Positions 1-31,986 of a DNA stretch of 34,015 nucleotides are shown in pieces; the first letter of the stretch is position 1, and every line of letters starts with the position of its first letter. The notes under the pieces were generated by a model. It had not been told where the DNA came from. It did no database searches and saw nothing but the letters and a program-made list of their open reading frames with translations. This DNA is from Cypionkella aquatica. GTDB lineage: Bacteria > Pseudomonadota > Alphaproteobacteria > Rhodobacterales > Rhodobacteraceae. Made by a program: the position numbers and the translations under genes. Where the stretch lies: the NCBI RefSeq assembly GCF_030161095.1, contig NZ_BSPP01000016.1:1-34015 (forward strand). Reading direction: 5' to 3'.

Positions 1-774
1 CTCTGCCTGCGCCAAAAGGTCGGTCGCAATCATCTCGGCATCGCCAGTCTCATCCGCCAGAGTGTAGATCTCGGTGGTCGCCGTATCATTAAAAAACCCC
101 ACCGGACCAAACACCTGCCGCTTGGCTTCGTTCACAAAAGCATTGCCCGGCCCCATGATCTTCATCACACCCGGCACAGTCTCGGTGCCAAACGCCATCG
201 CCGCAATCGCCTGCGCGCCTCCAATGCGGAAAATCCGATCCGCGCCAGACAGATGGCACCCCGCCACCATCGCCTCATGCGCATTGGGCGGCAGACACGC
301 GATCACCTCAGGCACACCCGCAACCTTTGCCGGAACAATCGTCATGATCGGCGCCGACAACAGCGGAAACCGCCCACCCGGCACATAGCAGCCCACCCGG
401 TCAATCGGGATAACCCGATGCCCCATGAACACACCGGGAAGCGGCTCAATCTCAAGCGGCAAAATCGTCGCCAGTTGCGCCTCGGCAAAGCGGCGGACGT
501 TGGCGATGGCGAATTCAGTGTCCTTCCGCGTCTGCGGATCAAGCGCCGCCACAGCCGCCTCACGCTGCGCTTGCGTCACTTCAAACGCCTGCAGGTCTGA
601 TTTGTCGAATTGCGCCGAATACTCCCGCACCGCCGCATCGCCGCGCGATTTGACGTCAGCGAGGATCTTGGCGACCAGTTCGGCCACAGGTTTGTTATCG
701 CTTTCGGCATTGCGGCTGGGCGCTTTTACCCAAGAAATTTTTGCGGTCGGATAGGCTTCGGACAGGTTCGACAT
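1..774 (-). CDS. HisD-family dehydrogenase (HpsN-like), partial and adapter-corrupted
   Basis: The 258 visible codons form the N-terminal part of a zinc-dependent dehydrogenase of the histidinol/sulfopropanediol dehydrogenase family; the C-terminus lies beyond the window. Family marks are RGDAAVREYS near residue 40, GCYVPGGRFPLLSAP, RIGGAQAIAAMAFGTE, MGPGNAFVNEAKRQVFGPVG, and DLLAQAE just before the edge, where the zinc-binding Gln lies. Where the family has [11 protein letters not shown], this frame reads VGFFNDTATTEIYTL, the peptide encoded by a poly-T plus Illumina P5 oligo (positions 62-96), so that stretch is not genomic. ATG at 774 is preferred; ATG at 777 is also possible. GGAG at 779-782 gives 4 nt spacing to 774 but only 1 nt to 777. 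The gene is divergent from the related dehydrogenase at 1029 and shares its upstream region. Substrate unknown; likely a polyol or sulfonate alcohol. Confidence 0.85.
   Translation of the reverse strand, partial: MSNLSEAYPTAKISWVKAPSRNAESDNKPVAELVAKILADVKSRGDAAVREYSAQFDKSDLQAFEVTQAQREAAVAALDPQTRKDTEFAIANVRRFAEAQLATILPLEIEPLPGVFMGHRVIPIDRVGCYVPGGRFPLLSAPIMTIVPAKVAGVPEVIACLPPNAHEAMVAGCHLSGADRIFRIGGAQAIAAMAFGTETVPGVMKIMGPGNAFVNEAKRQVFGPVGFFNDTATTEIYTLADETGDAEMIATDLLAQAE
62..96 (-). other. Illumina P5 flow-cell oligo sequence embedded in the assembly
   Basis: Read on the minus strand, 90 down to 62 is identical to the 29-nt Illumina P5 sequence (begins AATGATACGGCGACC, ends GAGATCTACAC). It is preceded at 96-91 by TTTTTT, matching the poly-T linker of the grafted flow-cell oligo. 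It encodes FFNDTATTEIYTL inside a HisD-family protein exactly where [10 protein letters not shown] is expected, with the reading frame and spacing preserved. The 3' part of the oligo (ACCGAGATCTACAC) could coincide with true codons for TEIYT, which would explain mispriming there. This is an artefact rather than biology. Confidence 0.95.
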
Positions 775-827
775 CATGCTCCTTTCGGGCCAGAAGGGCC
801 TTTGTTTTGCGGTTAGGCTAGTCAATC

Positions 828-1028: not shown

Positions 1029-2339
1029 ATGGCTGTAACCTGGCTCAAACGTGGCAAGCCCGAAACGGAACGCGCGGCCGATGATGCGAAAACCCGCGCG
1101 ATGGTCGAATCTGTGCTGGCCGATATCGAATCGCGTGGCGATGCGGCGGTGCGCGATCTGTCGGTGAAGTTCGACCGCTATGACCCGCCCAGCTTTCGGT
1201 TGACCCCGTCCGAGATCGAAGCCGCGATGCAAAAAGTCTCTGCGCGCGACATGGAGGATATCCGGTTCGCGCAGACCCAGATCCGCCGATTTGCAGAAGC
1301 GCAGCGTGCCAGCATGACGGATATAGAGGTTGAAACTCTGCCCGGCGTCTTCCTTGGCCATCGCAATATCCCGGTGCAGTCGGTCGGCTGCTATGTTCCG
1401 GGCGGCAAGTTTCCGATGGTTGCCAGCGCGCATATGTCGGTGCTGACGGCGTCGGTTGCTGGTGTGCCGCGCATTGTGGCGTCGGCCCCGCCGGTGAATG
1501 GTGCGCCGCATCCGGCGATTGTGGCCGCGATGGCCTTGGGCGGCGCGCATGAGATTTACGTTCTGGGCGGGATGCAGGCCGTGGGGGCGATGGCGATTGG
1601 CACCGAAACCATCACGCCCGTGGATATGCTCGTCGGCCCCGGCAATGCCTTTGTGGCCGAGGCCAAGCGCCAGCTTTATGGCCGCGTTGGCATTGATCTG
1701 TTTGCGGGCCCGACTGAAACTATGGTGATCGCTGACGATACGGTGGATGCCGAGCTTTGCGCCACTGACCTGCTGGGTCAGGCCGAGCATGGCTATAACT
1801 CGCCCGCCGTATTACTGACCAACAGCCGCAAACTGGCCGAGGCGACACTGGCCGAGGTGGACCGCCTGCTGCAAATCCTGCCAACCGCCGCGACGGCATC
1901 GGTCAGCTGGGCCGATTACGGCGAGGTGATCGTCTGCGACAGCTATGATGAGATGCTGGCGGTCGCCAATGATATCGCCTCCGAGCATGTGCAGGTGATG
2001 ACCGACCGCGACGACTGGTTCCTGCAAAACATGCACTCTTATGGTGCGCTGTTCCTTGGCCCGCGCACCAATGTCGCCAATGGCGACAAGGTGATCGGCA
2101 CCAATCACACCCTGCCGACCAAGAAAGCTGGCCGCTATACGGGCGGGCTTTGGGTTGGCAAGTTCCTGAAAACCCACAGCTATCAGCGCATCACCACCGA
2201 CGCTGCCGCAGCCGAAATCGGGGCCTATGGCTCGCGCCTGTGCATGCTGGAGGGCTTTGTTGGCCATGCCGAGCAATGCAATATCCGCGTGCGCCGCTAT
2301 GGCGGGCAGAACGTGCCTTACGGGGCGGCCGCCGAATGA
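1029..2339 (+). CDS. HisD-family zinc dehydrogenase (sulfopropanediol 3-dehydrogenase HpsN-like)
   Basis: A 436-residue NAD-dependent dehydrogenase of the histidinol dehydrogenase family; family members carry out a two-step oxidation of a primary alcohol to an acid. Visible family residues by analogy with E. coli HisD: Gln251 and His254 (GQAEHG), Asp353 and His413 as zinc ligands, Glu319-His320 (ASEHVQ) as catalytic acid/base, His360 (NHTLPT). Other blocks: [11 protein letters not shown] at 121-130 and [13 protein letters not shown] at 203-215. Start chosen at the ATG preceded by GAGG (1019-1022, 6 nt spacing); the frame is open further upstream but without family-like sequence. It heads a five-gene run with overlaps or short gaps. 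It lacks his-operon context and its sequence is HpsN-like, so histidine synthesis is unlikely. The true substrate is not evident: the cluster has no sulfonate lyase. Confidence 0.9.
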
Positions 2340-13514: not shown

Positions 13515-16025
13515 ATGTCGAGTAATCACGCGGAAACCAAGATAGATACAATTTCCGGGGTTGTTTATATATTCGTCCCTGTATCTCGGGTGAAATTCAA
13601 GAAGACGGGTGAGTTTCAGTTCATTCTCGGGCTGCAAAGGGCGCTATCACGGTGCCGCATCAAAAGCCAAACGATCTTGCTGGGTGAAACAGTCAGTGCC
13701 CTGCAGAATGGAGATATTGCCCTTCACATTTGCGGACAATATTATCGCCCTCCCATCCCCGGCGTGCCAAATATACTTTGGGTTATTTCCAATCCGCAGC
13801 TGCTGACTTTGCCATTGGCCCGCAGCTATCAACATATCTTCAGCAGTTCGAGACGGTTTGTGCGTTGCCTCGAAGGGTTGGGCCTGAACAACGTCAGTTT
13901 TTTGTCGCAGTGCACGGATCTTGGTGTTTTTAAGCCTCCTGAAGTATCAGGGAACCGACACAGATCATTTTTCTTTGCTGGCAACATGCGGCAGGACTTT
14001 CGGCGCAGCAATGTTGAAATGTTGCTGTATCTGGGCGTAGATATCGAAATTGTTGGGCGCGGCTGGAGCCTTCTGAACCACCCGACACAACCAACCAAGC
14101 CTTGGATCAAAACCGATGAGCTTGTCAAAAAATATCAATCTTCTCGGGTGGTTGTAAATCATCATCGTCAATCAATGCGGGCGCTGGGCTTTGCAAACAA
14201 CCGCATTTTTGATGCGCTGGCTTGTGGTGCCAGGGTGCTAAGTGATGACGTTGAAATCCCTGCTGAACTGCAACCCTACGTTACAACTTCGTCCACTGGC
14301 ATATTACACAAAGATGCATTGGAGGCGCTGAGCTTGGCTCCGCCAATCGTTGGCGAAGAGCTTGAGATTTTAAGGAGTATCTTGCAGAACGAATATTCCT
14401 TTGATGCAGCTGCACGCAAAATCATCGGAAAGGTAGCCGATCTTGCGACGAATGGTATCGTTTTCCAAGCACCGTTTGACAAATTGCGCGCCCATCCGCT
14501 GACTATGCCTGCGACAAAGTGGTCTATTAATACCTGCGATGACCCTGACTTGTTTGACCTTCTGTCTAAGAATGTAGATAAAAACACAATATGGACGCCC
14601 GGATCACCTATTCCCAATGATACTGTGCTTGTTGCCCCGAAGCATCTCATGGTTGCTACTGACGCAATGCCCGAGCGATCAATTTCATTTCTGCTGGCGC
14701 CCGTAAATCGGCATAACAAACTAGATGCCGAAAAGATGAGCATTGATCTTGCCGTGCATATCCGGCGCTTATCCACATTAGCAATGGTGTGCGCCGATGT
14801 TGGGATACTGGGACGATTTAGATTTATCAAGATCGACGAGATTGACCCTAGCCAAGACTCTGCCAATCCGCTTTGTAGCATCGCACGCGACATTTACTCG
14901 ACTTGGGATAAATCCCCGATAGACAATATGACGTTCTCCCTCACCAGTTTGCAAGATTCGCTAAGCAAAAATAAACCTGTCGCTACGGAAATAGTTTTGC
15001 CGCAAATAAACGACGCCATCATACGTTTTAGCCCAGATGCTTCGAGCGAACCTCTTGATAAGTTGCTAAGTCGCATATCAAGTGACACGCCCGAACGTCA
15101 GTACGAAGAACTTGCCAATAATATTTTTTACCAATCACAGATAAACACTAATTTCGTGCTCAAGGAAATGAACGTGCGAAGGTTGGACTCAGAAGGTCAA
15201 GGCAATTCGGCCAAAGTAGAAGCGATTTCTTTCCAGTCGAGACTAAGTGCCCCCAAACCCACCAATCCAGTTGGTGTTTTCATTCATTTGTTCTACCTAG
15301 ATGGTATCGACGCCATCAAAGATATTCTATTGCGCATCAATGCACCTATGCATATCTACATTTCAACTGATTGTGATATTAAGCGAGAATTGATCAAAGA
15401 AAAATTTGAAAACTTTCAAACTGACATTCGTGTCTTCAAGAATCGGGGCAGAGATATTTATCCGAAGCTTTTTGGTTGGATTCCCGAACATCAGCACCAT
15501 GAGCTTGTGCTTCATTTGCATGGAAAGAAATCTGACCATATTCGTCCACTTGCACAATCTTGGTTTGATGATATCACCGAATGCCTTGCACCTGATGAGG
15601 GAACGGTTAACAGCATCATTGCAATGTTTAAGAATATTAAAGGTCTGGGTATGATCGGCCCCCGTCCATTCCAACAGATTGCCAACAACATACACTGGCG
15701 CAACAATCACAATATTGGGCGCGAGATTTTGCGGCGAATTGGTATGGCCAGCAATATTGCCGATCTACCGTTGCAATTTCCAGCTGGAAGCATGTTTTGG
15801 GCTCGACCATCGGCTTTGGCACCGCTGTTCAAACTGGCGCTAGATGCAGATGATTTTCCGCCAGAGCAAGGTCAATTGGATGGAACTTTGGCGCATGCAT
15901 TGGAGCGCTGCCTTGCTTTGTCGTGCGAGTTTGCGGGGCTTCGGTATTTGGAGGTCGCGCCGGGCACCGAAGGCCGTGAAAAAATGGATGTAGGTGCGGT
16001 TCGAGCTTTACTTAAGGCCAATTAG
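13515..16025 (+). CDS. Glycosyltransferase fused to a rhamnan-synthesis protein F (RgpF)-like domain
   Basis: An 836-residue cytoplasmic protein. The N-terminal ~300 residues resemble CgeB/Glyco_trans_1_2 glycosyltransferases: FFFAGNMRQDFRR, VDIEIVGRGW, VVVNHHRQSMRALGFANNRIFDALACGARVLSD and a conserved valine-aspartate strand. After a poorly conserved middle (about 310-590), residues from about 597 match RgpF-type domains: VGVFIHLFYLDGIDAIKDIL, VFKNRGRDIYPKLFGW, HELVLHLHGKKS, GMIGPRPF and FPAGSMFWARPSAL. The protein probably adds and extends sugars on a cell-surface glycan. The DNA is visibly more AT-rich than all neighbours, with many AAA, AAT, ATA and TTT codons, a sign of transfer. The start ATG has only a weak GAG upstream. 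Confidence 0.87.
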   Translation: MSSNHAETKIDTISGVVYIFVPVSRVKFKKTGEFQFILGLQRALSRCRIKSQTILLGETVSALQNGDIALHICGQYYRPPIPGVPNILWVISNPQLLTLPLARSYQHIFSSSRRFVRCLEGLGLNNVSFLSQCTDLGVFKPPEVSGNRHRSFFFAGNMRQDFRRSNVEMLLYLGVDIEIVGRGWSLLNHPTQPTKPWIKTDELVKKYQSSRVVVNHHRQSMRALGFANNRIFDALACGARVLSDDVEIPAELQPYVTTSSTGILHKDALEALSLAPPIVGEELEILRSILQNEYSFDAAARKIIGKVADLATNGIVFQAPFDKLRAHPLTMPATKWSINTCDDPDLFDLLSKNVDKNTIWTPGSPIPNDTVLVAPKHLMVATDAMPERSISFLLAPVNRHNKLDAEKMSIDLAVHIRRLSTLAMVCADVGILGRFRFIKIDEIDPSQDSANPLCSIARDIYSTWDKSPIDNMTFSLTSLQDSLSKNKPVATEIVLPQINDAIIRFSPDASSEPLDKLLSRISSDTPERQYEELANNIFYQSQINTNFVLKEMNVRRLDSEGQGNSAKVEAISFQSRLSAPKPTNPVGVFIHLFYLDGIDAIKDILLRINAPMHIYISTDCDIKRELIKEKFENFQTDIRVFKNRGRDIYPKLFGWIPEHQHHELVLHLHGKKSDHIRPLAQSWFDDITECLAPDEGTVNSIIAMFKNIKGLGMIGPRPFQQIANNIHWRNNHNIGREILRRIGMASNIADLPLQFPAGSMFWARPSALAPLFKLALDADDFPPEQGQLDGTLAHALERCLALSCEFAGLRYLEVAPGTEGREKMDVGAVRALLKAN

Positions 16026-16180
16026 GCCATTCGGACCGGCCCGGCGGTGCCATCGGCAAGCTTTTGCGGCGCTCATTGGGATCTTCGTGGGTAGGCGGCC
16101 GAGCCTCTTGCATCGAATATGCTTTCACATCGCCGCAAGACCCGGTAAGCATCACAATCTTCGCAGATTTGGGAAAAAAC

Positions 16181-16726
16181 ATGGCGCAAAATGCCACCGT
16201 TTACAAAGTTGAGCTTTCCGTCTCAGACATGGATCGCCACTATTATGAAACGCATAAACTGACCATAGCCAAGCATCCTTCGGAAACGGATGAACGGTTG
16301 ATGCTGCGTATTGTCGCTTTTGCGCTGAACGCCCATAAAAATCTGGAAATGACTAAAGGAATTTCAACCAATGACGAGCCCGACATCTGGCAAAAGAGCC
16401 TGAGTGGCGAGTTGGAAGTTTGGGTCGCACTCGGCTTGCCGAGCGAGAAAGTTATGCGACAATCCTGCAGTAAGGCTGATAAAGTCGTTGTCTACCCATA
16501 CGGTGGTAAAACTGCCGAGATTTGGTGGGACAAGATCAAAGACGGAAGCCTTCGGTTCGCAAATTTGCAAGTTATAGGGTTTTCCGAAAAGGATACAACC
16601 GAACTGACCAAGCTGGCGAACCGCACGATGCAGTTGCAGGTCAATATTCAGGATGGCGAATTGATGGTCAGCGTCGCAGATCACATTGTTTATTTGACGC
16701 CGTTAAAATGGAAGGCCGCCGCGTAG
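16181..16726 (+). CDS. yaeQ: YaeQ family protein
   Basis: A 181-residue protein, exactly the usual YaeQ length. Marks: KVELSVSDMDRHYYETHKLTIAKHPSE (read as KVELSVSDMDRHYYE then HPSETDERLMLR), EPDIWQKSLSGE, ELWVALGLP-like EVWVALGLPSEKVMRQSCSKAD, VVVYPYGG and WWDKI. The fold belongs to the PD-(D/E)XK nuclease-like superfamily, but the biochemical role of YaeQ is not settled. The chosen ATG at 16181 gives family length; the frame is open 39 codons upstream without resemblance. It stands alone, 155 bp after the fusion gene. Confidence 0.93.
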   Translation: MAQNATVYKVELSVSDMDRHYYETHKLTIAKHPSETDERLMLRIVAFALNAHKNLEMTKGISTNDEPDIWQKSLSGELEVWVALGLPSEKVMRQSCSKADKVVVYPYGGKTAEIWWDKIKDGSLRFANLQVIGFSEKDTTELTKLANRTMQLQVNIQDGELMVSVADHIVYLTPLKWKAAA

Positions 16727-17067
16727 CTGACCAGCAACGACTATCTTTAGTGCAGTGATTATTAAGGGCTCTGAATCAAAGCTTTCTCACCGATTTGCCT
16801 GACATTTTCAAAGGCATGTTGCGTCCCTAGCTGGGAAACTTTGCTTAGCATACCTAACCAGCGATATATATTTTTTCAGAGCGCAAATAGTTTTACGCTT
16901 GCTCAGCCAAGGGTCGCTGACAGACATATTGCTGTGGGATATGCTGCCTGCCATCGCGTGCCGGATCAACGTCCGCACCACGCGGCTGGGATTATTGCGG
17001 CGACCGACACTATGGGCTTTGCCGCACCAAAATCTGATTGGAGCGCGCCAGCTTCAGCATTGTTTGC
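16727..17067. other. Intergenic region between convergent genes
   Basis: These 341 bp separate yaeQ from the 3' end of the galactosidase operon. I see no gene, clear terminator or repeat; the AT-rich patch near 16865-16885 is only low-complexity. Confidence 0.5.
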
Positions 17068-19137
17068 TCATATTTTTATTCCCTCGACCATCCAGATAGA
17101 GGCAGGCCATGCAACTGGCAACAAGATACCCTGTGCCATCAGTGCGGCTCCGCTTAGGCGCAGCGGGCCGGTGGCCAAAGCACATTTGGCCCGCGATTGC
17201 GGTGGCGCATCATCGGCGTTCATCAGGCGGATTTCATAGTGCGCTGCGGGGTCAAGCCCGGTCAGACGCAGGGCTTTGGGCAGAATCTGTCGGCTCATCT
17301 CGATCTGGGCTGAGGCCAGCACAAATCGCCCGCCATCCTCGGAAACTTGCATCTCGGCAAGCACGGCAGGATCAGCGCTGTCCAGCCGCAGCGTTGCTGC
17401 CCGCATGAGCCAATCGCGGTTGGCTTTCCACCACGCAGTCACGTGGCCCAGTGTCTGCGCCTCGGCAGTGTCGAGCGCGCGAAGGTCCATCTCAAAACCA
17501 AAGTGCCGGGTGGCCGCGACCCAAGCGCGCAGCGACATGGGATGCGCGCGCCCGGTGGTGTGGGATTTGCGCGCACCGACATGGCTGCCGACAACACAGG
17601 ACGGCAAGAACAGGGCGGCGTCATGCTGGATGCGCAGCCGTTCGATCGGATCAAGGCAATCGGACAGCCAGACGCGCTGGGTCTGCGCGAGTATGCCTGC
17701 GTCGATCCGACCGCCGCCCGAGGCGCAGCTTTCCAACTCGACCAGCGGATGTGCAGCGCGCAGGCGGGCCATCAGGGCATAGATGCCACGGGTCTGCTCG
17801 GCGTCCACCACTGGCAGCAGGCGGTTGTGATCCCATTTCAGATAATCGATTGGATAGGCCCGCAACAATGCCGAAAGCACTTCAAACAGATGGTCCTGCA
17901 CCGCTTGTAAGCCAAGGTTTAGCACCAGTTGGTTGCGCCCGGTGGTTTGATCGGCATGCCCCAGCACCCAATCGGGATGGGCGCGGTAGAGGTCGCTGTT
18001 GGGGTTGATCATCTCGGGTTCGACCCAAAGGCCGAAGGTCATGTTCAGCGCGTGGATGTGGGCGATCAGCGGATGCAGGCCCTGCGGCCATTTGCGCAGG
18101 TCCACCGTCCAGTCGCCAAGGCTGGAAGTGTCGTTGTCGCGTAGTTTGAACCAGCCATCGTCGAGCACGAAACGCTCGGCCCCCAAGGCGGCTGCACGGG
18201 TGGCGATGTCGGATAGGGTGGCAAGGTCGTGGTCGAAATACACAGCCTCCCAGCAGTTGTAATGCACCGGGCGCGGGCGGGCGGGGTCGGGCCATGTCAC
18301 CACGCGGTCGCGGATGTCGCGCTGAAAGGTCTGACCGATGCCATTCAGGCCGCTGTCTGACACCGCCGCCAGCAGTTCAGCCGATTGAAACTGTGTCGAG
18401 GTTTCCAGTTCTGCGCCCCATGCTTGGCCAAACTGCACCTGACGCCGGCCGTCGGGCATCTCTTCCGCGACCATGCGGTGCCCGCCTGACCATGCATAAT
18501 GCAGCGCCCGCACCTTGCCTGCGGTATTGGTGCAGCCGGGTTCTGGGAACAGCGCATAGGGCGGATGTTCTTGGCCCGAGCGCCCAGTGCGGGCCTCGCG
18601 CAGGCGGGCGCCGACAGACCATGGCTGGCGCTGCAGTTGAAACTCGCCGAGCCATTTGCCCGCAACGTCGATCATTTCGGTGCCCAAGGCTGGGATTGGC
18701 AGCACAGGCGCTGCCAGCCAGTGCAGGCGGACCGGGCGATCTGCTTGCAGCGCGGTGGTCATTGCGATCACGCCCGTGGGGTGGGCGCGGAAGCTGTGGC
18801 TTAGGCGCAGTCCGTCTGCGGTGCTGTGCAGGGTCAGAGCATCTGGGGCAATCTCGGCATGGTCGAACCGAAAGCGTGGGGTGATCTGGTGGCCGTCTGC
18901 CTCGCTAAGCGCCATGCCGGGTTGGCCCTGCCAATCGGACCCCGGCAGCGGGCAAAGCGACAGATCGGGCAGACGGTCGAGCATCCCGCCTGTCAAATCA
19001 GACACTTGAGACAGCGCAAGCGCCTCCAGATCTTCGGATGCGGGCAGTGGCGCACCCCAATAGACCACCTGAGGCATGATGCCTTCGGTCGCCAGAACAA
19101 GCGTTTGCTGCGGGGTATCCAGACGCCACTGCGGCAT
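17068..19137 (-). CDS. Alpha-galactosidase, GH36
   Basis: A 689-residue glycoside hydrolase family 36 enzyme that releases alpha-linked galactose. The (beta/alpha)8 domain shows NCWEAVYFD (294-302), LDDGWF (325-330), FGLWVEPEMINPNSDL (368-383), the nucleophile Asp436 in YLKWDHNR, CASGGGR (471-477) and the acid/base Asp493 in LSDCLD. The N-terminal beta-sandwich includes HPPYALFPEPG. Length is normal for the family. No signal peptide is present, so it acts on imported galactosides. It is the last gene of the operon, 3 bp after the GH42 gene. Raffinose-series sugars, melibiose or galactosylglycerols are possible substrates. Confidence 0.95.
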   Translation of the reverse strand: MPQWRLDTPQQTLVLATEGIMPQVVYWGAPLPASEDLEALALSQVSDLTGGMLDRLPDLSLCPLPGSDWQGQPGMALSEADGHQITPRFRFDHAEIAPDALTLHSTADGLRLSHSFRAHPTGVIAMTTALQADRPVRLHWLAAPVLPIPALGTEMIDVAGKWLGEFQLQRQPWSVGARLREARTGRSGQEHPPYALFPEPGCTNTAGKVRALHYAWSGGHRMVAEEMPDGRRQVQFGQAWGAELETSTQFQSAELLAAVSDSGLNGIGQTFQRDIRDRVVTWPDPARPRPVHYNCWEAVYFDHDLATLSDIATRAAALGAERFVLDDGWFKLRDNDTSSLGDWTVDLRKWPQGLHPLIAHIHALNMTFGLWVEPEMINPNSDLYRAHPDWVLGHADQTTGRNQLVLNLGLQAVQDHLFEVLSALLRAYPIDYLKWDHNRLLPVVDAEQTRGIYALMARLRAAHPLVELESCASGGGRIDAGILAQTQRVWLSDCLDPIERLRIQHDAALFLPSCVVGSHVGARKSHTTGRAHPMSLRAWVAATRHFGFEMDLRALDTAEAQTLGHVTAWWKANRDWLMRAATLRLDSADPAVLAEMQVSEDGGRFVLASAQIEMSRQILPKALRLTGLDPAAHYEIRLMNADDAPPQSRAKCALATGPLRLSGAALMAQGILLPVAWPASIWMVEGIKI

Positions 19138-19140
19138 GGC

Positions 19141-21087
19141 TTAAACCTTTTCCGATAGGGACTTAGCGACGGTGACGCTTTGCGCGGGCATCTGATGGTT
19201 GCCCAGCACACATTCAAAGCTTTCTGGCAGGCTCCATGCCTCGGGGCCATAGTTGGTGAAGAACCACAGATCGCCCCGGCGGCGCAGGCGGATGTGTTCG
19301 GGCAGCGGCATGGTGTGCAGGCCCGCGGTGTGGCAGACCAGATCCATCACCGACCCGAGTAGTGCCTCATCCGGCCAGCACAGCAGATGCAGGGCTTGGC
19401 CGTGTTGGGTCAGCGCAGGGCCGCCGTCTTCAAAGCGGGCCAGCACCTGCGCTGTTGTTGTCGCGTGGTCGCGCCAGCGGGTGGCGTGGCCTTCAACCCC
19501 GCCGCTGACGGTTTGGGTCAGACCGGGGCGTAGCGATGCGACTTCGATCACGCGGTTTTGCGTCAGGTCGTGCAGCGGGCCGGGGGGCAGATCGTGCGGG
19601 ATGGCAAAGCTGCGGGTGCGCGAGCCTGCCCGCGGGCCAATCAGCACCACGCCCTTTGCGGACTCCAGTGCCGCCTGTGCGGCATCGGTGACGTGGATCA
19701 TGGTGGGCACGATCACCGCCGCGTATCCGCCCAAGGGCGCACCGGGGCGGACCACATCGACATCAAGGCCGCGACGGCGCAAGGCCTCATACCAGCGGAA
19801 AGCAAGTTCTTCGTAGCGGAAGTCGCAGCCCTGTGGCTGCACCATGGTGGCCCAATAGCTGGCATAGTCGAACACAATGGCCACCGGAGCCTGCTGCACA
19901 GCAGGAAGTTGCCCGAGTTGTGCTATTTCTTGCGCAACGCGGCCCGCTTCAAGGCCGCCGGGCGACAGCGCGTCCGCCCCCGGCAGGTTCAAGCCGGCGT
20001 GATATTGTTCCTGCGCAAAGGGGGCCTGACGCCAGCGGAAATAGCTGACGACTTCGGCCCCGTGGGCCATGGCTTCCCATGTCCACAGCCGCACCATGCC
20101 GGGTTTGGGCACCGGGTTCCATGCCGCCCAGTTCACCGGGCCGGGCTGCTGCTCCATCACCCAGAACCGGCCACGTCCGACACCTCGGTAAAGATCGTGA
20201 TGCCACGGGGCGATGTCGGGGTGCGAGGTTTCGGCCCAGCGGTTGCGCTCGGCTTCCGAGAACGGGAATTTTTCGACAAAGCCAATCGGGTAGCTATCCC
20301 ATGATGCCAGATCAAGGTGATCGGCCACGGCGAAATGATCAAAATCTGACACAAAGCCCATGAAGTTATGGGTGATCCAGCGGCCCGGTGAATGGGCGCG
20401 GATGATGTCGCATTGCATCAAGTCATAAGCCGCGACCTGATCGGAATGGAAGCGCCAGAAATCCATCCGATGCGCCGGGTTGGCCTCGGTCACGGTCAGG
20501 TTCGGCAGGGTGACTTCCGCGAAATCGGCGACCTCCATCGACCAGAACACCGCGCCCCAAGCCTCGTTCAACTGATCGCAGGATTGATAGCGGCGGCGCA
20601 GCCAGTCTTGGAACGCCCGCAAATCTTCCGGGCCCCAAGACAGTGTTGTGTCGTGGCAGCCGTATTCGTTGTCGGTTTGCCAGCCAACCAAGCCGGGATG
20701 ATCGCCGTAACGCTGCGCAATCGCGGTGACGATGCGGGCGCTTTCGCGCCACCAAGCTTGCGACGACATGGTGTAATGCCGGCGCGAGCCAAAGCCGCGC
20801 ACGCGGCCTTGTTCGTCGTAGGGCAGAATGTCGGGACATTCATCAACCAGCCATTTCGGCGGCGTGGCGGTGGGCGTGCCAAGCACGATCTTCAGCCCTG
20901 CGGCGTGCAGCACATCCATGGCGCGGTCGAGCCAGCCAAAGTTGAACTGATCGCGCGCAGGTTCGATGCGAGACCATGCAAATTCGCCGATGCGGACGAA
21001 GGATATGCCAAGCTCGCGCATCCGGCGCGCATCGGTGGTCCAGCGGGCTTCGTCCCATTGTTCGGGGTAGTAGCAAACTCCAAGCAT
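19141..21087 (-). CDS. Beta-galactosidase, GH42
   Basis: A 648-residue GH42 enzyme. The N-terminus LGVCYYPEQWDEARW is characteristic of the family. Catalytic acid/base is Glu141 (GWQTDNEYGCH) and nucleophile Glu312 (FWVMEQQPGPVNW). A typical trimerisation-like middle domain (RWRQAPFAQEQYHAGL, VVLIGPRAGSRT) and a C-terminal beta domain follow. No export signal is present, so it is intracellular. Its ATG overlaps the stop of the ATPase gene by one base, so it is part of the transport operon. Agrobacterium lacEFGZK also couples a GH42-type LacZ with a similar importer, which supports a galactoside role. Confidence 0.95.
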   Translation of the reverse strand: MLGVCYYPEQWDEARWTTDARRMRELGISFVRIGEFAWSRIEPARDQFNFGWLDRAMDVLHAAGLKIVLGTPTATPPKWLVDECPDILPYDEQGRVRGFGSRRHYTMSSQAWWRESARIVTAIAQRYGDHPGLVGWQTDNEYGCHDTTLSWGPEDLRAFQDWLRRRYQSCDQLNEAWGAVFWSMEVADFAEVTLPNLTVTEANPAHRMDFWRFHSDQVAAYDLMQCDIIRAHSPGRWITHNFMGFVSDFDHFAVADHLDLASWDSYPIGFVEKFPFSEAERNRWAETSHPDIAPWHHDLYRGVGRGRFWVMEQQPGPVNWAAWNPVPKPGMVRLWTWEAMAHGAEVVSYFRWRQAPFAQEQYHAGLNLPGADALSPGGLEAGRVAQEIAQLGQLPAVQQAPVAIVFDYASYWATMVQPQGCDFRYEELAFRWYEALRRRGLDVDVVRPGAPLGGYAAVIVPTMIHVTDAAQAALESAKGVVLIGPRAGSRTRSFAIPHDLPPGPLHDLTQNRVIEVASLRPGLTQTVSGGVEGHATRWRDHATTTAQVLARFEDGGPALTQHGQALHLLCWPDEALLGSVMDLVCHTAGLHTMPLPEHIRLRRRGDLWFFTNYGPEAWSLPESFECVLGNHQMPAQSVTVAKSLSEKV

Positions 21088-22175
21088 CAGCGCGTCAAGT
21101 CCCCGTTCAATACGGCATTGCCGTCTGCATCAAACAAGTGGCAGGCGCGCGCCGGAAAGCCGATCTGCATCGTATCACCGGGACGCTCGGCTGCCAGACC
21201 GTCTGCCTTGACGGCGATTTCGGTGCCATCCGCCAGACTGACAAAGAACAGGGTTTCGGACCCCAGATGTTCTGCCAGTTGCACCTTTGCAGGCAGAACC
21301 GCGTCACCTGCCCCCGTAGCGCTGGCATGTTCGGGGCGCAGGCCCAAGGTCATCTTGCCCGCAGCCGCCAGCGTTCCAGCCAGTTGCAGGGTGGCTCCGC
21401 CCGGTAGTGTCACTTCGATGCCGCCGTTGTGGGGGCGGGCGTCAACCGGGATGAAATTCATCTTGGGGCTGCCGATAAAGCCCGCGACGAACAGGTTTTT
21501 CGGGCGGTGATACAGTTCCAGCGGGCTGCCGACCTGTTCAATGCGCCCCGCCGATAGCACGACGATCTTGTCGGCCATCGTCATCGCTTCGACCTGATCA
21601 TGCGTCACATAGATCATCGTGGCACCCAAGTCCTGATGCAGACGCGAGATTTCGCCGCGCATCTGCACCCGCAGCGATGCATCAAGGTTCGAGAGCGGCT
21701 CGTCGAACAGGAACACTTCGGGGTTACGCACGATCGCGCGGCCAATCGCCACCCGCTGGCGTTGCCCGCCCGAAAGCTGGCCGGGTTTGCGTTCCAGCAG
21801 GGGTTCCAGTTGCAGCATCTTGGCGGCGGCGGCGGTGCGCTTTGCAATCTCGGCCTTTTCATGGCCGGTCATGCGCAGCCCAAAGCCGATGTTCTCGCCC
21901 ACCGTCATGTGCGGATAAAGGGCATAACTTTGGAACACCATCGCCACACCGCGATCTGACGGGCCGATTTTCGTCATGTCGCGGCCACCGATGCGCAACG
22001 CGCCCTGCGAGATGTCCTCTAGCCCAGCGATCATCCGCAGCAAGGTGGATTTGCCGCAGCCCGAGGGGCCGACAAACACGCAGAACTCGCCGTCTTTGAT
22101 CTCAAGGTCGATGCCCTTGATGATGCTGATTGCACCAAAGTCTTTTTTGACGTTGCTTAGGCTTACTTCGGCCAT
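21087..22175 (-). CDS. Sugar ABC transporter ATP-binding protein (UgpC/MsmK/LacK type)
   Basis: A 362-residue ATPase of the carbohydrate uptake class 1 family. Walker A is GPSGCGKST (36-44), followed by the Q-loop [12 protein letters not shown], signature [14 protein letters not shown], Walker [13 protein letters not shown] and H-loop [12 protein letters not shown]-terminal MOP/TOBE regulatory domain includes [13 protein letters not shown] 22175 is chosen because GGAG lies 6 nt upstream. An in-frame ATG 12 codons earlier would overlap the permease gene further and lacks a site. It powers the two permeases encoded upstream. Confidence 0.95.
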
Positions 22176-22191
22176 GACAGGCTCCTTTTCA

Positions 22192-23040
22192 TCAGCCCTT
22201 GGTCGCGCCAAGGGTCAGTCCGGCAATGAAGTGCCGCTGCATTAGGAAAAACATCAACACGGGGGGCAGGGCTGCGACGATGGACCCGGCAGAGACCAGG
22301 TGCCACGCGGCCACCCATTGCCCGTTAAGTGCGTAAAGCCCTGCGGTGACGGGCATGGCGTGTTGGCCCTGCACCAGAACCGTGGCCCAGAAGTAATCGT
22401 TCCACACGAAGGTGAATACCAGCACTGACAGGGCTGCGATGGCGGGGCGCATCAGGGGCAGCACGATATGGCGGAATATCTGCCATTCGCTGACCCCTTC
22501 CACCCGCGCGCTTTCGATCAAGGCAAACGGCATACCCTTGATGAAATTGCGCATGAACAGAGTGCAGAACCCGGTCTGGAAGGCGACGTGAAACAGCACG
22601 AGGCCGAGTGTGCTGTCATAGAGCCCGGCCTTCAGCGTCAGATCGCGCACTGGCACCATCAGGATCTGGAACGGGATGAAGTTGCCCGCAACAAAGGCAA
22701 AGAACACCCAAAGATTGGCGCGAAAGCCGTAGACCGCCAGCGCAAAGCCGGTCAGGCAAGACAGGCCCACCGCGCCGATCACCGTCGGGATCGTCACCTT
22801 GAACGAGTTCAGGATATACCAGCCGATCGGGCTGTCGCGGAACACCGAAGCATAGTTTTCAAACGCGATGGACGAGGGCACACCAAAGTAATTGCCAGCC
22901 GCCAGATCGGATGCCGGGCGCAGCGACGTTACCGCCACACCGATCAGCGGAAACAGCCAGATCACCAAAGCGATGGGCAAGGCAATCTGATAGGCAAGTC
23001 TGGTGGGGCCCGAGGCTTTTTGAATCGGGGTCGGAAACAT
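22192..23040 (-). CDS. Sugar ABC transporter permease (MalG/LacG type)
   Basis: A 282-residue inner-membrane permease with about six membrane segments, starting with [18 protein letters not shown]. The EAA loop [28 protein letters not shown] lies near residue 180-210 and contacts the ATPase. [15 protein letters not shown] is typical of the MalG group. Its ATG overlaps the last base of the partner permease gene. The stop lies 16 bp before the ATPase start. Confidence 0.94.
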
Positions 23041-23945
23041 CAGCGGTTCCTTTCCTGTGCGATCATCCGCACGATGAACAGCGTGATAAACACCATCATG
23101 ATCAGGAACAGCACCACCGCGATGGCCGCCCCGTATCCCATGCGATAGCCGTATTCGGACAGGGCCTGTTCATACATGAAATACGACAGCACCTGACTGG
23201 AGCCATAAGGCCCGCCCGCCGTCATGATCGACACCAGATCGAAACTGCGCAACGCCCCGATCACGGTCACGACCATGGCGATGAAGGTCGCGGGCGCCAG
23301 TTGCGGCAAGATCACATGGCGCAGCAGACGCCAGCCACGGGCATTGTCCATCCGCGCGGCCTCGATCTGTTCCGAGTTCAGGTTGTTCAACCCGGTCAGA
23401 TACAGGATCATGCAATAGGCGGTCTGCGGCCATAGCCCTGCTACGATGATGCCATAAGTGACATAGCGTTCATCCGCGAGAATCGCCACTTCGCTGCCGG
23501 TCAACCATTTGATCATCTGCGAGAACAGGCCGAAATCGGGGGCGTAGAACCATGTGAACATCAGGCCGACAACGACTTGGCTGATCACGAAAGGAAAGAA
23601 GAACATCGACTTGTAAAGCCGGATACCCCAGACGTTCTGGTTCAGAAACAACGCGGCTGCCAGCCCCATCGGGATCGCCAGCAGATACAGTCCCAGCCAC
23701 AGCAGGTTGTTTTTCAGCGCGACATAGAAAGTATCGTCGTCCAAAAGCTCGACATAGTTGGCCAGACCGATCCAGGTTTTTGGCCCGAGGCCATCCCAAT
23801 CCTGAAAGCTGATCCAGATGGATTGCACAATCGGGATCAACACATAAATCGAGAACATCAGCGCACCCGGAGCAAAAAAGACGTAGGGTGCAATCTTCAT
23901 CTGGTTCCGTTTCCAGAACCCGGCAGGCTGGGGATCGTGCTGCAT
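23040..23945 (-). CDS. Sugar ABC transporter permease (MalF/LacF type)
   Basis: A 301-residue permease of the MalF/UgpA group. The first membrane segment is YVFFAPGALMFSIYVLIPIVQSIWISF, given here as APGALMFSIYVLIPIV. The EAA loop is EQIEAARMDNARGWRLLRHV followed by ILPQLAPA. FDLVSIMTAGGP is a conserved family block. It follows the binding-protein gene by 69 bp that contain two hairpins, and overlaps the next permease by one base. Confidence 0.94.
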   Translation of the reverse strand: MQHDPQPAGFWKRNQMKIAPYVFFAPGALMFSIYVLIPIVQSIWISFQDWDGLGPKTWIGLANYVELLDDDTFYVALKNNLLWLGLYLLAIPMGLAAALFLNQNVWGIRLYKSMFFFPFVISQVVVGLMFTWFYAPDFGLFSQMIKWLTGSEVAILADERYVTYGIIVAGLWPQTAYCMILYLTGLNNLNSEQIEAARMDNARGWRLLRHVILPQLAPATFIAMVVTVIGALRSFDLVSIMTAGGPYGSSQVLSYFMYEQALSEYGYRMGYGAAIAVVLFLIMMVFITLFIVRMIAQERNR

Positions 23946-23969
23946 AGCGACCTCGTTAATGAAGCGGGT

Positions 23970-24015
23970 CGGGGCCGCCAGAAGGCGACCCCGTAGTCGG
24001 GGGAGGAGTCCGACT
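23970..24015 (-). promoter_or_regulatory. Two hairpins between binding-protein and permease genes
   Basis: Downstream of the binding-protein stop, AGTCGG (24000-23995 complement side) pairs with CCGACT at 24010-24015 with a 9-nt loop, and CGGGGCCGCC (23970-23979) pairs with GGCGACCCCG (23984-23993) around a 4-nt loop with one G-T. The second is a very stable 10-bp stem. There is no T-run, so partial termination or mRNA 3'-end protection is likely. That would give more binding protein than permease, as in malE-malF. Confidence 0.6.
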
Positions 24016-25247
24016 TATTTGTAGACCTTGGCGCGGGTTTTCTCGAGCCGTTCAAGGATGCGGTCCAGATCGTCGGGCTTGACCATGAATTCCTGAAAGC
24101 CCTCCATCCCGGCCTTGGCCATTTCGGCAGGCGCGTCGCGGTCATAGAACTGCGCCAAAGCATGCGCGTTCGACAGCATGGTGAAGCCTGCTTCAAGGAA
24201 GGTGTCGGTGGGTTTTGCCGCTTGATTGTTGACCGGCAACTGGCCCAGCGTCGTGTTCATCTTGGCTTGCGCTTCGGGCGAGGCGAGATAGGCAAGGAAC
24301 GTCTTCGCGTCTTCCTTGTTCTTCGCCCCGGCAGGGATGTGGAACGTGTCGGTCGGCGCATCTTCCGACATCGGAATACCTGCGGTAATTTCCGGGAACT
24401 GCATAAAGCCGATCTGGTCTTCGCTCAGCCCGCCGTCTTTCATCGTGGCCACCGCAAAGTTGCCCATCAGATACATCGCAGCCTTGCCCTGCACGATTTG
24501 CGGGATGGCATCTTGCCAATCAATCGCCGCATGGTTGGCGATGAAATAGCCCGGCTTGACCAGTTCTGCCCATTTCTCGAACACGGCTTTGACCCGCGGA
24601 TCGGTGTAGGGCACTTTGCCAGACGTCAGCTCCATGTGGAATTCATAGCCGTTGACTCGCAGATCGAGGTAGTCAAACCAACCAGCAGTCGGCCACAAGG
24701 CTTTGGTTCCAATGGCGAAAGGCACGATTCCTGCGGCATTCAGCTTTTCACAGGCGGCCAGCAGTTCGGCCCAGTTTTTCGGCGGCGTGATGCCGTTCTG
24801 TTCAAACAGGTCTTTGCGGTAGTAGATGCCCCACTGATAGTAAGTGTAAGGCACACCCCACTTTTTACCATCAATGGTCATAGACGAGGCGGCCGATTTC
24901 AACTGATCATCCAGACCATTGGCCGCCCAAACGTCGCTTACGTCCTCGAACAGGCCGGCTTTGACAAATGGCTCCATCCGGTTGCCCGCATACCAAGCGG
25001 CCACATCCGGCGGATCGGCGGTCAGAAAGTTGCGGATCGCGGCCTTGTAGCCTTCGTGATCGAAGTTGTTCCATTTGACGGTAATGTCAGGATGTTTCAC
25101 CTGAAAATCTGCAATCAACTCTTCCATCGCCTTTTTCGGCGTCGGGTCCGAGTGATCCGAGTTGATGGTGATCTCGCCTGCAAATGCAGCTGAGCCCATT
25201 AGAAAAGCGCTAAGCGCCAGCCCGGTGAGGGCTTTTGTGAGTGTCAT
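24015..25247 (-). CDS. Sugar ABC transporter substrate-binding protein
   Basis: A 410-residue periplasmic binding protein of the maltose/galactoside (family 1) type. The N-terminus MTLTKALTGLALSAFLMGSAAFA is a Sec signal peptide with probable cleavage after AAFA. Then follow ITINSDHSDPTPKKAME, FLTADPPDVAAWYAGNR, WGVPYTYYQWGIYYRKDLFE, GKAAMYLMGNF and FHIPAGAKNKEDAKTFLAYL. ATG 25247 has a strong GGAGG with 5 nt spacing; the frame is open 28 codons upstream but those residues are not signal-like. First gene of the operon; the ligand is probably an alpha- or beta-galactoside given the two hydrolases. Confidence 0.95.
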   Translation of the reverse strand: MTLTKALTGLALSAFLMGSAAFAGEITINSDHSDPTPKKAMEELIADFQVKHPDITVKWNNFDHEGYKAAIRNFLTADPPDVAAWYAGNRMEPFVKAGLFEDVSDVWAANGLDDQLKSAASSMTIDGKKWGVPYTYYQWGIYYRKDLFEQNGITPPKNWAELLAACEKLNAAGIVPFAIGTKALWPTAGWFDYLDLRVNGYEFHMELTSGKVPYTDPRVKAVFEKWAELVKPGYFIANHAAIDWQDAIPQIVQGKAAMYLMGNFAVATMKDGGLSEDQIGFMQFPEITAGIPMSEDAPTDTFHIPAGAKNKEDAKTFLAYLASPEAQAKMNTTLGQLPVNNQAAKPTDTFLEAGFTMLSNAHALAQFYDRDAPAEMAKAGMEGFQEFMVKPDDLDRILERLEKTRAKVYK

Positions 25248-25260
25248 GGTTTCCTCCCTG

Positions 25261-25277
25261 AAACCGGAAATCGGTTT
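25261..25277. promoter_or_regulatory. Palindromic site in the divergent promoter region
   Basis: AAACCG and CGGTTT form an inverted repeat around GAAAT. The 9-mer ACCGGAAAT (25263-25271) recurs inverted as ATTTCCGGT at 25367-25375, 96 bp away. Both copies lie between the binding-protein gene and the AraC-type regulator, so they are candidate regulator sites. Confidence 0.4.
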
Positions 25278-25395
25278 TGCCCCAGAAGTCTCTCCTCTTA
25301 AAGAGCATCTGGTTGCGGTTGAATTTGGCATGAAATGCAGTAAACTCTACCGACATGCGGCCTAATATTTCCGGTATTCTAAGGTGTCTGTGCAA

Positions 25396-26322
25396 ATGAA
25401 ATCCGAAACGACGGCGAATACGCGTTTTGAGTCCACGCCCGCGCAGCCCGAGTATGACCCGCTCCATCCGCTTGTGGTGTTTGGCGATCATCGGTTTTGC
25501 GCGAGCCCGACGCAGGATGTTCAGTGCATGGCAGGGCCGCATATGCACAGCCAGATCGAGCTGAATTTCGTTCTGGAAGGTGAGATGACCTATTGGTTTG
25601 ACGGGCGAGAGTTGACGGTGGATGCCGGCCGGCTGTGCCTGTTTTGGGGGATGGTGCCGCATCAGGTGATTTCCCGTGCCGATCCGACGTGGTTTGTCTG
25701 CCTATATGTGCCGATGTCCGTGTTTCTGGGGTTTGGCTCGCTGATCCGGTTTCGCGATGCGGTGTTTCGTGGGGCTTTGATCGAGGCGATGCATCTGACC
25801 GCTTGGGACCGCGATATCTTTCTGCGGTGGCGCGACGAATTGCTGTCGGGCGATGCCGGCCTGTCTGAGATTGTCCGCAATGAATTGACGGCGCGAGTGA
25901 TGCGGATCGAACGCGATGGCTGGCGTGATCTGCGCGAGGCAGGTTCGGCGATCGCCAGCCCTGCCCCACATGGCGCAGAGCGGATTGAACATGTCGAGCG
26001 TATGCTGCGCTATGTGGCGGAACATGCTCCGGGCGACGTGCGGGCTGAAGCGGTGGCAGCCAGCAGCGGCCTGCATCCGAACTATGCGATGTCACTGTTC
26101 AAACGGTCGGTTGGGCACAGCATCACGCAAGCCATCACCCGGCACAGGTTGGATACGGCGCAGTCGCTGTTGATCTCGACAGACAAATCCATCACCGAAA
26201 TTGTGTATGAATCCGGCTTCGGGTCGATCTCGCGCTTTTATGAAGCGTTTTCCGACAGATTTGGCGAGCGCCCAAAAAAGTTCCGCCAACGCTTGCGCGC
26301 CAAGGCTGTGCCTTCTTCTTAA
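25396..26322 (+). CDS. AraC-family transcriptional regulator
   Basis: About 308 residues. The N-terminal half has a cupin-like sensor domain (GPHMHSQIELNFVLEGEMTYWFDGRE split as GPHMHSQIELNFVLEG and WFDGRELTVDAGRLCLFWG). The C-terminal 100 residues carry two helix-turn-helix motifs, VRAEAVAASSGLHPNYAMSL and SITEIVYESGFGSISRFYEA, ending in FGERPKKFRQRL. It is divergent from the transport operon with a 148-bp gap and is the likely galactoside-responsive activator. The start is uncertain: GTG 25384, GTG 25390 and ATG 25396 are in frame, and only the ATG has AAGG upstream, at a long spacing. Confidence 0.92.
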   Translation: MKSETTANTRFESTPAQPEYDPLHPLVVFGDHRFCASPTQDVQCMAGPHMHSQIELNFVLEGEMTYWFDGRELTVDAGRLCLFWGMVPHQVISRADPTWFVCLYVPMSVFLGFGSLIRFRDAVFRGALIEAMHLTAWDRDIFLRWRDELLSGDAGLSEIVRNELTARVMRIERDGWRDLREAGSAIASPAPHGAERIEHVERMLRYVAEHAPGDVRAEAVAASSGLHPNYAMSLFKRSVGHSITQAITRHRLDTAQSLLISTDKSITEIVYESGFGSISRFYEAFSDRFGERPKKFRQRLRAKAVPSS

Positions 26323-27014
26323 GTTTGCAGGCGTCGCTGCGAAAGATATGGCGGGCTTAGCATGCGCGAAGCAACCGCACTGTGACCAAGCTGCTTTGGC
26401 TTTCAGGCGCGAAAGCGACGCGCCTGCCCCTGATATCTTGAAAGCCCTTCACCATCCTCAAAATCGCGCCGTGTCATCGACGTTCACGCGGCCATTTTCA
26501 GACTTCGGACGGATAAGACGCGGCCGATGCCAAGCCTTGCCCCTTTTGACGCACTACTCTCGTCGGGCGCTTGCGCAGTGGGCAGTTTTGATGACCGAGC
26601 ACCCTGCCCCCAATCGCCGCAGTCAGTCCGGCCAGACAGGGCCTGCTGCCGTTGAGGCAGATGCACGTTCTCACGGCGCGATGATTGTTCGAGAGATTGG
26701 CGACCATGTTGCGCTGCAGGTTCAGGCACTGTCAGGTGGGCAAGGTTGTGCTTAGCGTTGCTGGCTAAAGGCGGCCAGCCAAAGGCGACGGGACGTTGGA
26801 TGGGCCTTCGCTCCAGCCGCGTTCGGATGACTGCGCACAGGCCGAAGCGCAGTTGTAACCCGGTCTGCGACGCGGTTTCTTTGCGCAGGAATGATCCGGT
26901 TGGCCGCAATGGAATCGCATGCTTTTAGGGTTACGACAACGGCCTAGCAGGCGTGGGGGACAGATTGCGGCCAGCGTGCGTCGACCGAGTTGGACTGTGC
27001 AAACAACACATCTC
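26323..27014. other. Region without a recognisable gene
   Basis: These 692 bp lie between the AraC-type gene and the 3' end of the XRE regulator. Apart from the hairpin at 26404-26426 I see no element. Open frames up to about 180 codons exist on both strands, but they are arginine- and proline-rich, lack good ribosome sites and match nothing I know. Decayed coding sequence is possible. Confidence 0.5.
26404..26426 (+). terminator. Strong hairpin after the AraC-type gene
   Basis: CAGGCGCG (26404-26411) and CGCGCCTG (26419-26426) form a perfect 8-bp GC-rich stem with a 7-nt loop, about 80 bp after the regulator stop. No T-run follows on the plus strand, so terminator function is only possible. 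Confidence 0.35.
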
Positions 27015-28412
27015 TCAGACGTCGTACCGTGTGACCCCGCGGCGCAGGGCATCGACTGGTTGGGTGAGGATTACCGCTTGATGGGCCCGCTGGTCGCAGT
27101 TTGAACGCGGACAAATGCGGCAGTTGATGCCGATCTGAGTCATCCGGGCCTCAGACATCGAGAAGCTTTCAGCATAGCCAATTTCCGGCGCATATTGGAC
27201 AGCGCAGCCCATCGCGACAGCCAGACGATTGTCTTGGGCGTGACGCGCCCATGTCGGGCGATCCACGGTGCGGGAAAATACGAAGAACTGACTGCGATCA
27301 GGCATCTCGACAAATTGCGGCACGATGCGGTTGGGGGTGCGGAACGAGGTATGCACTTCCAGCCGCGGGCAAGCACCGCCATATTCGGCCAGATGAAAAT
27401 CTGTGGCGTTGAAGCGTTTGGTGACATTGCCGCCCTTGTCTATGCGCAAGAAGAAAAACCGCACCCCCTGTGCGCCCTCGCGTTGCAACGTGGTGGCGCG
27501 GTGACAGGCCTGCTCGAAGCTGACGTCAAAGCGGGTGGCAATGTGGTCAAAGTCATATTTCGAGGCGCGGGCCTCGGCCAGAAACTCTGCATAGGGCATC
27601 AGGACGGCTGCGGCGAAATAGTTGGCCAGTTCCACCCTCAGACGGGCGATTCCCCGCGCCTCATGGATGCCACTGCGCTGAATCAGGCTGTCCAAAAGGT
27701 CGCGCTGTTCCAAAAGCCCCACCATATGTACCAGCTGAAACGTGCGGTTGGGTTGATCCAGCGCCTCAGAGAGCAGGATTTCGCGGCGGGTCTCATCGTA
27801 TTGGCGCAGAGCGCCCGGCAGATCCTCGACCCGGCACAGCCTGACCGTGACCCCAAGATTGTCGCGCAGCCTTTGCTTGAGCATCACATAAATCTCGTCC
27901 CTTTCGATCAGAGGACTGGGCCAAAACGCTTCGGCGGCCTCTTCCAGCTCACGAAAGTGGTTGCGGTTGCGGCGAAACACATCATGCACCGCCGCTTCGG
28001 GAGAAGCCGAGGTTTGCGGCGCGCCGCTTTCGGTCAGGGCCAAAAGCTGATCCGACACGACCTGATAGCTGCGATAAAGTGTCATGAAACTGTAAACCAG
28101 CCCCGGCGCATGGACCAATGCTGCCCGCAATTGCGGCAAATCAGGGCGGGTCTGTGTAAACAGCGGATCCTGAATAACCGCGCGCAAATCCGAGAGCTGG
28201 GCGGTGCCATCCTCGTTGGCAATGTCGCGCCACTCGACTCCATAAGCCTCGAACAGGCGCAGCAGAACCTGCACCGATACAGATCTTTCGTTGTTTTCCA
28301 GAAGGTTGACATAAGACGCGCTAATTCCAAGCGCCTTGGCCATCGCACCTTGGGTTTCTTTGCGTTCCAACCGAAGGCGACGCAGGTGGGGGCCGATGAA
28401 GGTCTTTTTCAT
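27015..28412 (-). CDS. XRE-family regulator with ImmA/IrrE-like and short-chain fatty acyl regulator (ScfR) domains
   Basis: A 465-residue regulator. The N-terminal helix-turn-helix (about 5-60) includes LRRLRLERKETQGAMAKALG and ISASYVNLLENNERSVS. A middle region with ANYFAAAVLMPYAEFLAEA resembles the IrrE/ImmA-type domain, though the HExxH zinc motif is not intact (HMVGL stands near its place). The C-terminal part resembles the ScfR/DUF2083 domain and carries a CRICPRSNCDQRAH cysteine cluster close to the end. Relatives such as RamB control acetate, propionate or glyoxylate metabolism. It is divergent from the sgaA-mcl-mtkAB operon and is its probable regulator. ATG 28412 was chosen; GTG 28424 is an alternative. 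Confidence 0.9.
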   Translation of the reverse strand: MKKTFIGPHLRRLRLERKETQGAMAKALGISASYVNLLENNERSVSVQVLLRLFEAYGVEWRDIANEDGTAQLSDLRAVIQDPLFTQTRPDLPQLRAALVHAPGLVYSFMTLYRSYQVVSDQLLALTESGAPQTSASPEAAVHDVFRRNRNHFRELEEAAEAFWPSPLIERDEIYVMLKQRLRDNLGVTVRLCRVEDLPGALRQYDETRREILLSEALDQPNRTFQLVHMVGLLEQRDLLDSLIQRSGIHEARGIARLRVELANYFAAAVLMPYAEFLAEARASKYDFDHIATRFDVSFEQACHRATTLQREGAQGVRFFFLRIDKGGNVTKRFNATDFHLAEYGGACPRLEVHTSFRTPNRIVPQFVEMPDRSQFFVFSRTVDRPTWARHAQDNRLAVAMGCAVQYAPEIGYAESFSMSEARMTQIGINCRICPRSNCDQRAHQAVILTQPVDALRRGVTRYDV

Positions 28413-28557
28413 ATCATCCCACACAAGGTAATTTTGCTGAATTTACAATATTACATCGTTTCAATTCTGTAAACTCTCGCACTCACAGCGAAACGTGTTT
28501 TCATTTTGCACAAGTTTGATGCAGTGCGAAGGCTGCCTCTGACCCAAGGAGGACACC
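28413..28557. promoter_or_regulatory. Divergent promoter region, XRE regulator / serine-cycle genes
   Basis: The 145 bp are AT-rich. TTTACA and TGTAAA (about 28443-28474) form an inverted repeat with a wide spacer, and ATTTTGC occurs twice (near 28431 and 28504). RamB/ScfR-type regulators bind TTTGCAA-like elements, so these are candidate operators. AGGAGG stands 6 nt before the sgaA ATG. Confidence 0.35.
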
Positions 28558-29754: not shown

Positions 29755-29776
29755 ACCGCAATAGCAGGAGCCTAAA

Positions 29777-30715: not shown

Positions 30716-30790
30716 CCGGAAAACTTCTGCGAAAACTCAACAGTTGAAGCGTCTGAATTGACACCCAATTCAGGACGCAGAGGGGAAAAG

Positions 30791-31975: not shown

Positions 31976-31986
31976 AGGAGGACACT

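Follow-up and report, generated by a model that had tools for sequence, protein, structure and literature searches.

A T-Spacer-Linked Illumina P5 Sequence Overwrites 35 Bases of a HisD-Family Gene in a Cypionkella aquatica Assembly, Probably by Mispriming of the Flow-Cell Oligonucleotide

The Foreign Block and Its Host Gene

Thirty-five bases close to the start of a contig of Cypionkella aquatica are foreign and, for all practical purposes with certainty, represent an artefact that says nothing about the bacterium. The whole stretch of DNA that was analyzed (34,015 bases, hereafter the window) contains the Illumina P5 oligonucleotide (AATGATACGGCGACCACCGAGATCTACAC) on its minus strand, identical at 29/29 bases and preceded by six T (AAAAAA on the plus strand), inside a HisD-family gene. 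Most probably, the oligonucleotide fixed to the Illumina flow-cell surface, composed of a T6 spacer and P5, misprimed within library inserts, and the resulting mixed clusters were read in phase. The surface oligonucleotide and priming by it are well supported as the source, and the in-phase hand-over between strands is probable. A match to P5 with up to three mismatches was obtained in 0/100 dinucleotide shuffles. The features concerned are listed in Table 1.

Table 1. Features of the window in and around the foreign block.
Feature	Position	Strand	Basis or remark
Illumina P5 oligonucleotide, 29/29 bases	62..90	-	Absent from C15, the other copy of the region
T6, taken to be the 5′ spacer of the surface-bound P5 oligonucleotide	91..96	-	Not in C15; T runs at other P5 sites
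CCGAGATCTACA, probable priming match, alike in P5 and the true gene	63..74	-	Alignment of C16 with C15
HisD-family gene, 5′ part, genuine	97..777	-	Profile scores, identity to C15, match to 8wwe
Same HisD-family gene continued, genuine	1..61	-	Identical to C15; contig stops 61 bases past the artefact
Second HisD-family gene, divergent	1029..2339	+	TIGR00069 428.4 bits; context only

Within the block of 35 bases, the true sequence is altered at 14 positions and retained at 21, so that the original prediction, which had proposed the replacement of about 21 bases, set the number too high. At the peptide level, the true IDQLAGPSEIYI reads FFNDTATTEIYT in the window. The 12 bases of CCGAGATCTACA are common to P5 and the true gene. 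The proposal that the 3′ part of the oligonucleotide coincides with genuine codons is therefore correct for this stretch and incorrect in the codons named, which are SEIYI rather than TEIYT. The 3′-terminal base of P5 (window position 62) is mismatched to the true base of the hisD-like gene. The corresponding place in the intact copy (C15:33942-33954) is one of 11 loci at which the assembly deviates from the 13 bases at the 3′ end of P5 by exactly one mismatch; these 11 include one artefact site. P5 is not followed by any further adapter sequence in the window, and the true gene resumes from position 61 downwards.

The assignment of the host gene to the HisD family was borne out by scores above the curated cut-offs of TIGR00069 (252.2 bits; cut-off, 243.8) and PF00815 (261.4 bits; cut-off, 27), despite both the artefact and the truncation of the gene, which leaves the contig at base 1. 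The nearest solved structure is that of (R)-DHPS dehydrogenase (8wwe, E 1.2e-57), and the protein alignment with it is ungapped in the artefact region; small gaps occur near the site in the alignment with E. coli HisD (1k75). The damaged gene thus belongs to the same family as (R)-DHPS dehydrogenase and L-histidinol dehydrogenase, and the variant peptide in the window is no property of this protein family. In addition, two HisD-family genes lie side by side in divergent orientation, the host gene (positions 1-777) and that on the plus strand. Since the closest solved structure to the product of the host gene is that of (R)-DHPS dehydrogenase, this gene may have a role in sulfonate use rather than in histidine synthesis.

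The Intact Copy and Redundant Contigs

The window corresponds, letter for letter in 1-1590 and 14016-34015, to contig C16 of the assembly (4,042,650 bases). This contig is a redundant near-copy of C15:1-34015, a second contig of 75,144 bases in which the HisD-family gene is uninterrupted. The two differ at 14 positions, every one within 62-96, with zero differences in bases 1-61 and 97-34015, and a congener (G247) agrees with C15 at 35/35 bases of the overwritten block. In-register replacement without a change of length, as originally proposed, is therefore confirmed, and so is the warning that the peptide should not be taken as biology; the caution advised for bases 1-61 proved unneeded.

Three other contigs, C6, C12, and C14, resemble C16 in that an artefact lies near a contig end with exactly 61 bases beyond it. 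C12 shows no difference from C11 over 15,000 of 15,635 bases, a compared part that excludes the artefact. C14 shows 20 differences from C7 in the first 19,998 of its 42,055 bases, all inside the artefact, and a 200-base piece of its tail is also found in C7. C6 is covered completely by one blastn match in C1, with 17 mismatches, one gap, and an N nearby in C1. Together, C6, C12, C14, and C16 amount to 115,148 bases (2.8% of the assembly) and are redundant as far as compared. The contamination value of 2 listed for this genome may be accounted for by this duplication of contigs. It was also observed that, at four P5 sites joined by a single N in scaffolds (L001, L002, L004, and L008), the overlapping contig ends were written twice, giving false short duplications.

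P5 Sites in the Assembly

A search of the assembly for P5 with up to three mismatches, made without requiring T, yielded eight sites (seven exact and one with a single mismatch), and the reversed control pattern gave no match in the same assembly. The original prediction had proposed searching the rest of the assembly for the 29-mer, and this search was decisive: given eight P5 sites and a further copy of the region that is intact, its reading as an artefact with priming at a chance match holds. Each of the eight sites has a T run before P5, of six or seven T at seven of them and of five T after an N at L008, and at 0/8 does P5 continue as adapter. The exact 29-mer was absent from 393 other genomes of the family (exact matches only), and P7 with up to three mismatches was absent from the assembly itself. 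P7 could misprime as well, yet it is absent here, which counts against the best explanation.

Wherever both flanks are present (six sites), the overwrite spans exactly 35 bases and the true neighbours lie at the right distance. This exchange was seen in the comparisons C16/C15, C6/C1, C12/C11, and C14/C7, and in L001 and L004 relative to the congener, where the net gap is zero and the base-level alignment contains balancing gaps. Four of the eight sites coincide with scaffold joins, each of which shows a single N. For L002 and L008, the contig sequence behind such an N opens with the T run, as would be expected if the template ended at this point.

When T6 plus P5 was compared with the true sequence (taken from the congener at L001 and L004), the 14 bases at the 3′ end showed 10 to 13 agreements at 8/8 sites, the longest uninterrupted stretch being 8 to 12 bases, against just 2 to 10 agreements in the first 21 bases. 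This concentration of agreement at the 3′ end points to priming by the 3′ end of P5, as predicted. At L008:1501-1529, the P5 copy keeps the true base G where P5 has T. In contrast, C14 and C16 keep the P5 bases at mismatches, and this difference counts against the best explanation.

T Runs and P5 in Public Genomes and Viral Contigs

The pattern of T6, P5, and a following base other than T was found in at least 117 stretches (at least 118 sites) of species genomes, and a T run plus P5 was present in 33 stretches of viral contigs. Patterned chips carry a T6 spacer. In the species genomes, 95 sites among the matches listed have 10 or more bases ahead of the T run. With at least six T required by the pattern, the T-run lengths at these sites were 6 (30 sites), 7 (10), 8 (4), 9 (3), 10 (22), 11 (14), 12 (8), and longer (4). 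Peaks at 6-7 and 10-11 with a dip at 8-9 are evidence for two spacer lengths, which would be expected to give such a distribution. In viral contigs, each of the 21 P5 sites with a flank of this length has 9 or more T. P7 occurs there at no fewer than 123 sites, of which 41, among the matches listed, have such a flank (36 with 10 or more T, 2 with 9, and 3 with 6 or 7). A T10 spacer also occurs on home-made solid-phase slides, for which the available text of PMC11123353 describes T10 joined to the first 22 bases of P5 as a means against steric hindrance.

Among the matches listed, both collections together hold 139 distinct P5 sites, 52 of which continue as adapter and at most 87 of which do not; the latter number is an upper bound, as some sites, for example L045, L086, L099, L102, L137, L163, and L169, resemble an index or part of a read primer on inspection. 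Upstream of the T run, these 87 sites, again among the matches listed, carry 40 or more bases of other sequence (70), end at the T run (6), or show poly-C (4), poly-A (2), an N (2), or a short flank (3). In the direction of reading, this poly-C appears as poly-G, which two-colour machines record when a cycle yields no signal. Some templates thus seem to stop at the T run, with nothing read beyond it, whereas others go on with other sequence. The simplest joint account of templates that end at the T run and others that continue would be a two-strand cluster read in phase. Poly-C was also noticed next to a T run of 9-11 followed by P5 and adapter at L070, L087, L091, L097, L133, and L172, near contig ends, where it is probably dark-cycle poly-G fixed in public contigs.

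Proposed Origin and Alternative Explanations

Library P5 primers begin at AATGATAC, without T6 or T10. The six T are part of the foreign oligonucleotide, which fits chip-bound P5 better than a library primer because it is surface-bound primers that carry a T spacer at the 5′ end. Briefly, during cluster amplification the 3′ end of chip-bound P5 would anneal to a fortuitous match in an insert and then be extended. The priming match in the present case would be CCGAGATCTACA of the hisD-like gene, with the 3′-terminal base mismatched, and retention of P5's own base at this mismatch would fit an enzyme without proofreading. The cluster would then comprise full-length copies and short copies ending in P5 and T6, all with one sequencing start. 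From the opposite end, both kinds of strand would read alike as far as the priming site. Past it, the dominant short strands would contribute P5 followed by the six-base linker, which appears as A6 when read this way, and when these strands run out, the full-length strands would supply the true bases again, in phase. A read produced by such a hand-over would carry an ungapped 35-base overwrite. The assembler would keep both paths as separate contigs, and C16 would for this reason duplicate C15.

The strongest alternative, which appears improbable, is that real chimeric molecules were formed when a short strand ending in the complement of P5 and A6 re-annealed in register to a full-length strand and was extended past its mismatched 3′ end. 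Such molecules would likewise yield ungapped 35-base exchanges and would require no mixing of signals. They would, however, need extension from an unpaired A6 end at every site without slip, given the exact length at 6/6 sites, and the poly-C on the 5′ side of the T run at four sites without adapter suggests that templates end there.

That a free adapter or P5 library PCR primer misprimed before the library reached the chip is considerably less likely, since such primers lack the T run that stands at 8/8 assembly sites. The idea gains something from L086, L099, L102, L163, and L169, where P5 is followed by an apparent index and part of the read primer, and longer adapters may misprime. Moreover, the available text of PMC5941783 names free primers or adapters as the probable source of the spurious extension that library strands undergo in ExAmp chemistry.

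It is very unlikely that the assembler joined unrelated reads through the shared adapter, with junctions present in no read. The breaks exactly 61 bases past the artefact in C6, C12, C14, and C16 do imply that graph structure is involved in the contig ends, but the flanks are true neighbours at the exact distance in 6/6 cases, and a shared 35-mer would link different sites. That the 29-mer is real DNA of the strain, as a variant or an engineered sequence, can practically be dismissed: the reading frame is open through it, but the ordinary sequence is found in the same assembly and in the congener, and eight copies of one commercial oligonucleotide stand at unrelated sites. Real strain variation and an engineered tag were accordingly ruled out by the intact copy in C15, the congener, and the eight unrelated sites, and plain adapter read-through was ruled out as the true gene follows P5 and 0/8 sites continue as adapter.

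Register and Recurrent Genes in the Wider Set

With regard to the wider set, the same best reading frame was found in both flanks at 9/20 sites with clear frames (chance 1/6, P 0.003) and differed at 11/20; this test left out 133 of 153 sites (64 with adapter, 38 ambiguous, 29 with a short flank, and 2 duplicates). In a looser test, the count was 47/52 against 33.8 expected, with 12 of 64 candidates left out for having no open frame in a flank. The reading-frame evidence is informative but weak because several frames stay open in GC-rich flanks and certain genes terminate a short way past the site. Two sites that do not pass the frame test, L129 and L130, nevertheless align to XerD ungapped inside the artefact, which indicates that the test misses some true cases.

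Protein homology gives the clearer picture. In alignments with XerD (1a0p), the artefact is ungapped in 5/5 Xer-type proteins (L051, L094, L104, L129, and L130), L104 having one gap shortly upstream of it. Against aspartokinases, it is ungapped in 2/2 proteins with an upstream flank (L103 and L117). When 34 proteins with the NDTATTEIYT frame and at least 30 codons on each side were compared with Pfam, 4 matched Phage_integrase, 2 matched AA_kinase, 20 matched other families, and 8 matched none. L129 and L095, which are below this length rule and were added after reading of the peptides, match the Phage_integrase and AA_kinase families, respectively. A T run plus P5 thus falls on EIYT codons in five Xer-type recombinases and in three aspartokinases (L095, L103, and L117). 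These two families hold 8 of at most 87 sites without adapter among the matches listed, where, considering gene numbers per genome, well under one would be expected.

The recurrence in Xer-type and aspartokinase genes is attributed to the 3′ end of P5, ACC ACC GAG ATC TAC AC, which reads T-T-E-I-Y-T. The motifs it meets are E/QIYT of XerC/D-type recombinases, which holds the catalytic tyrosine, EIYT-D of aspartokinases, and SEIY of HisD relatives. It seems rather likely that this 3′ end primes readily on conserved codons in some families, which would be recurrent, in-frame, and hence unnoticed targets of corruption in public genomes, and that the length of the T run (6 or 10) records the type of chip. 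A pattern search of genome contigs for P5 fused to HisD-type codons (NNTNGCNGA) gave no match, so that HisD is a single case and recurrence in this family is not shown.

Comparison with Known Artefacts

The oligonucleotide found here is the same as in common Illumina adapter and P5 contamination, and the cure, screening and masking, is the same. In ordinary read-through, P5 is followed by an index or read-primer sequence, as in 52 of 139 distinct sites among the matches listed. Unlike such cases, P5 in the window has a T spacer, true insert on both sides, and an in-register overwrite. Index swapping and free-adapter extension in ExAmp chemistry, as far as covered by the available text of PMC5941783, likewise involve priming by oligonucleotides on library strands during on-chip clustering. 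According to the same text, index swapping exchanges the index end, whereas the match used for priming here, of 8-12 bases, lies within the insert; and unlike the free adapters discussed there, the primer appears to be the surface oligonucleotide itself. No description of in-register overwriting by a surface oligonucleotide was found among the open-access literature matches listed, at the level of titles and the beginnings of abstracts, and the peptide NDTATTEIYT was in no paper of the open-access literature searched.

Implications

An error of this kind keeps the length of a gene and can keep its frame, and is accepted by models of protein families, as illustrated by the damaged half-gene that passes the HisD cut-off. 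A one-line screen for T6-T10 plus P5 would detect such overwrites, and FFNDTATTEIYT is usable as a flag at the protein level. The error is silent, can hit conserved motifs, accompanies the duplication of whole contigs, and is present in published species genomes.
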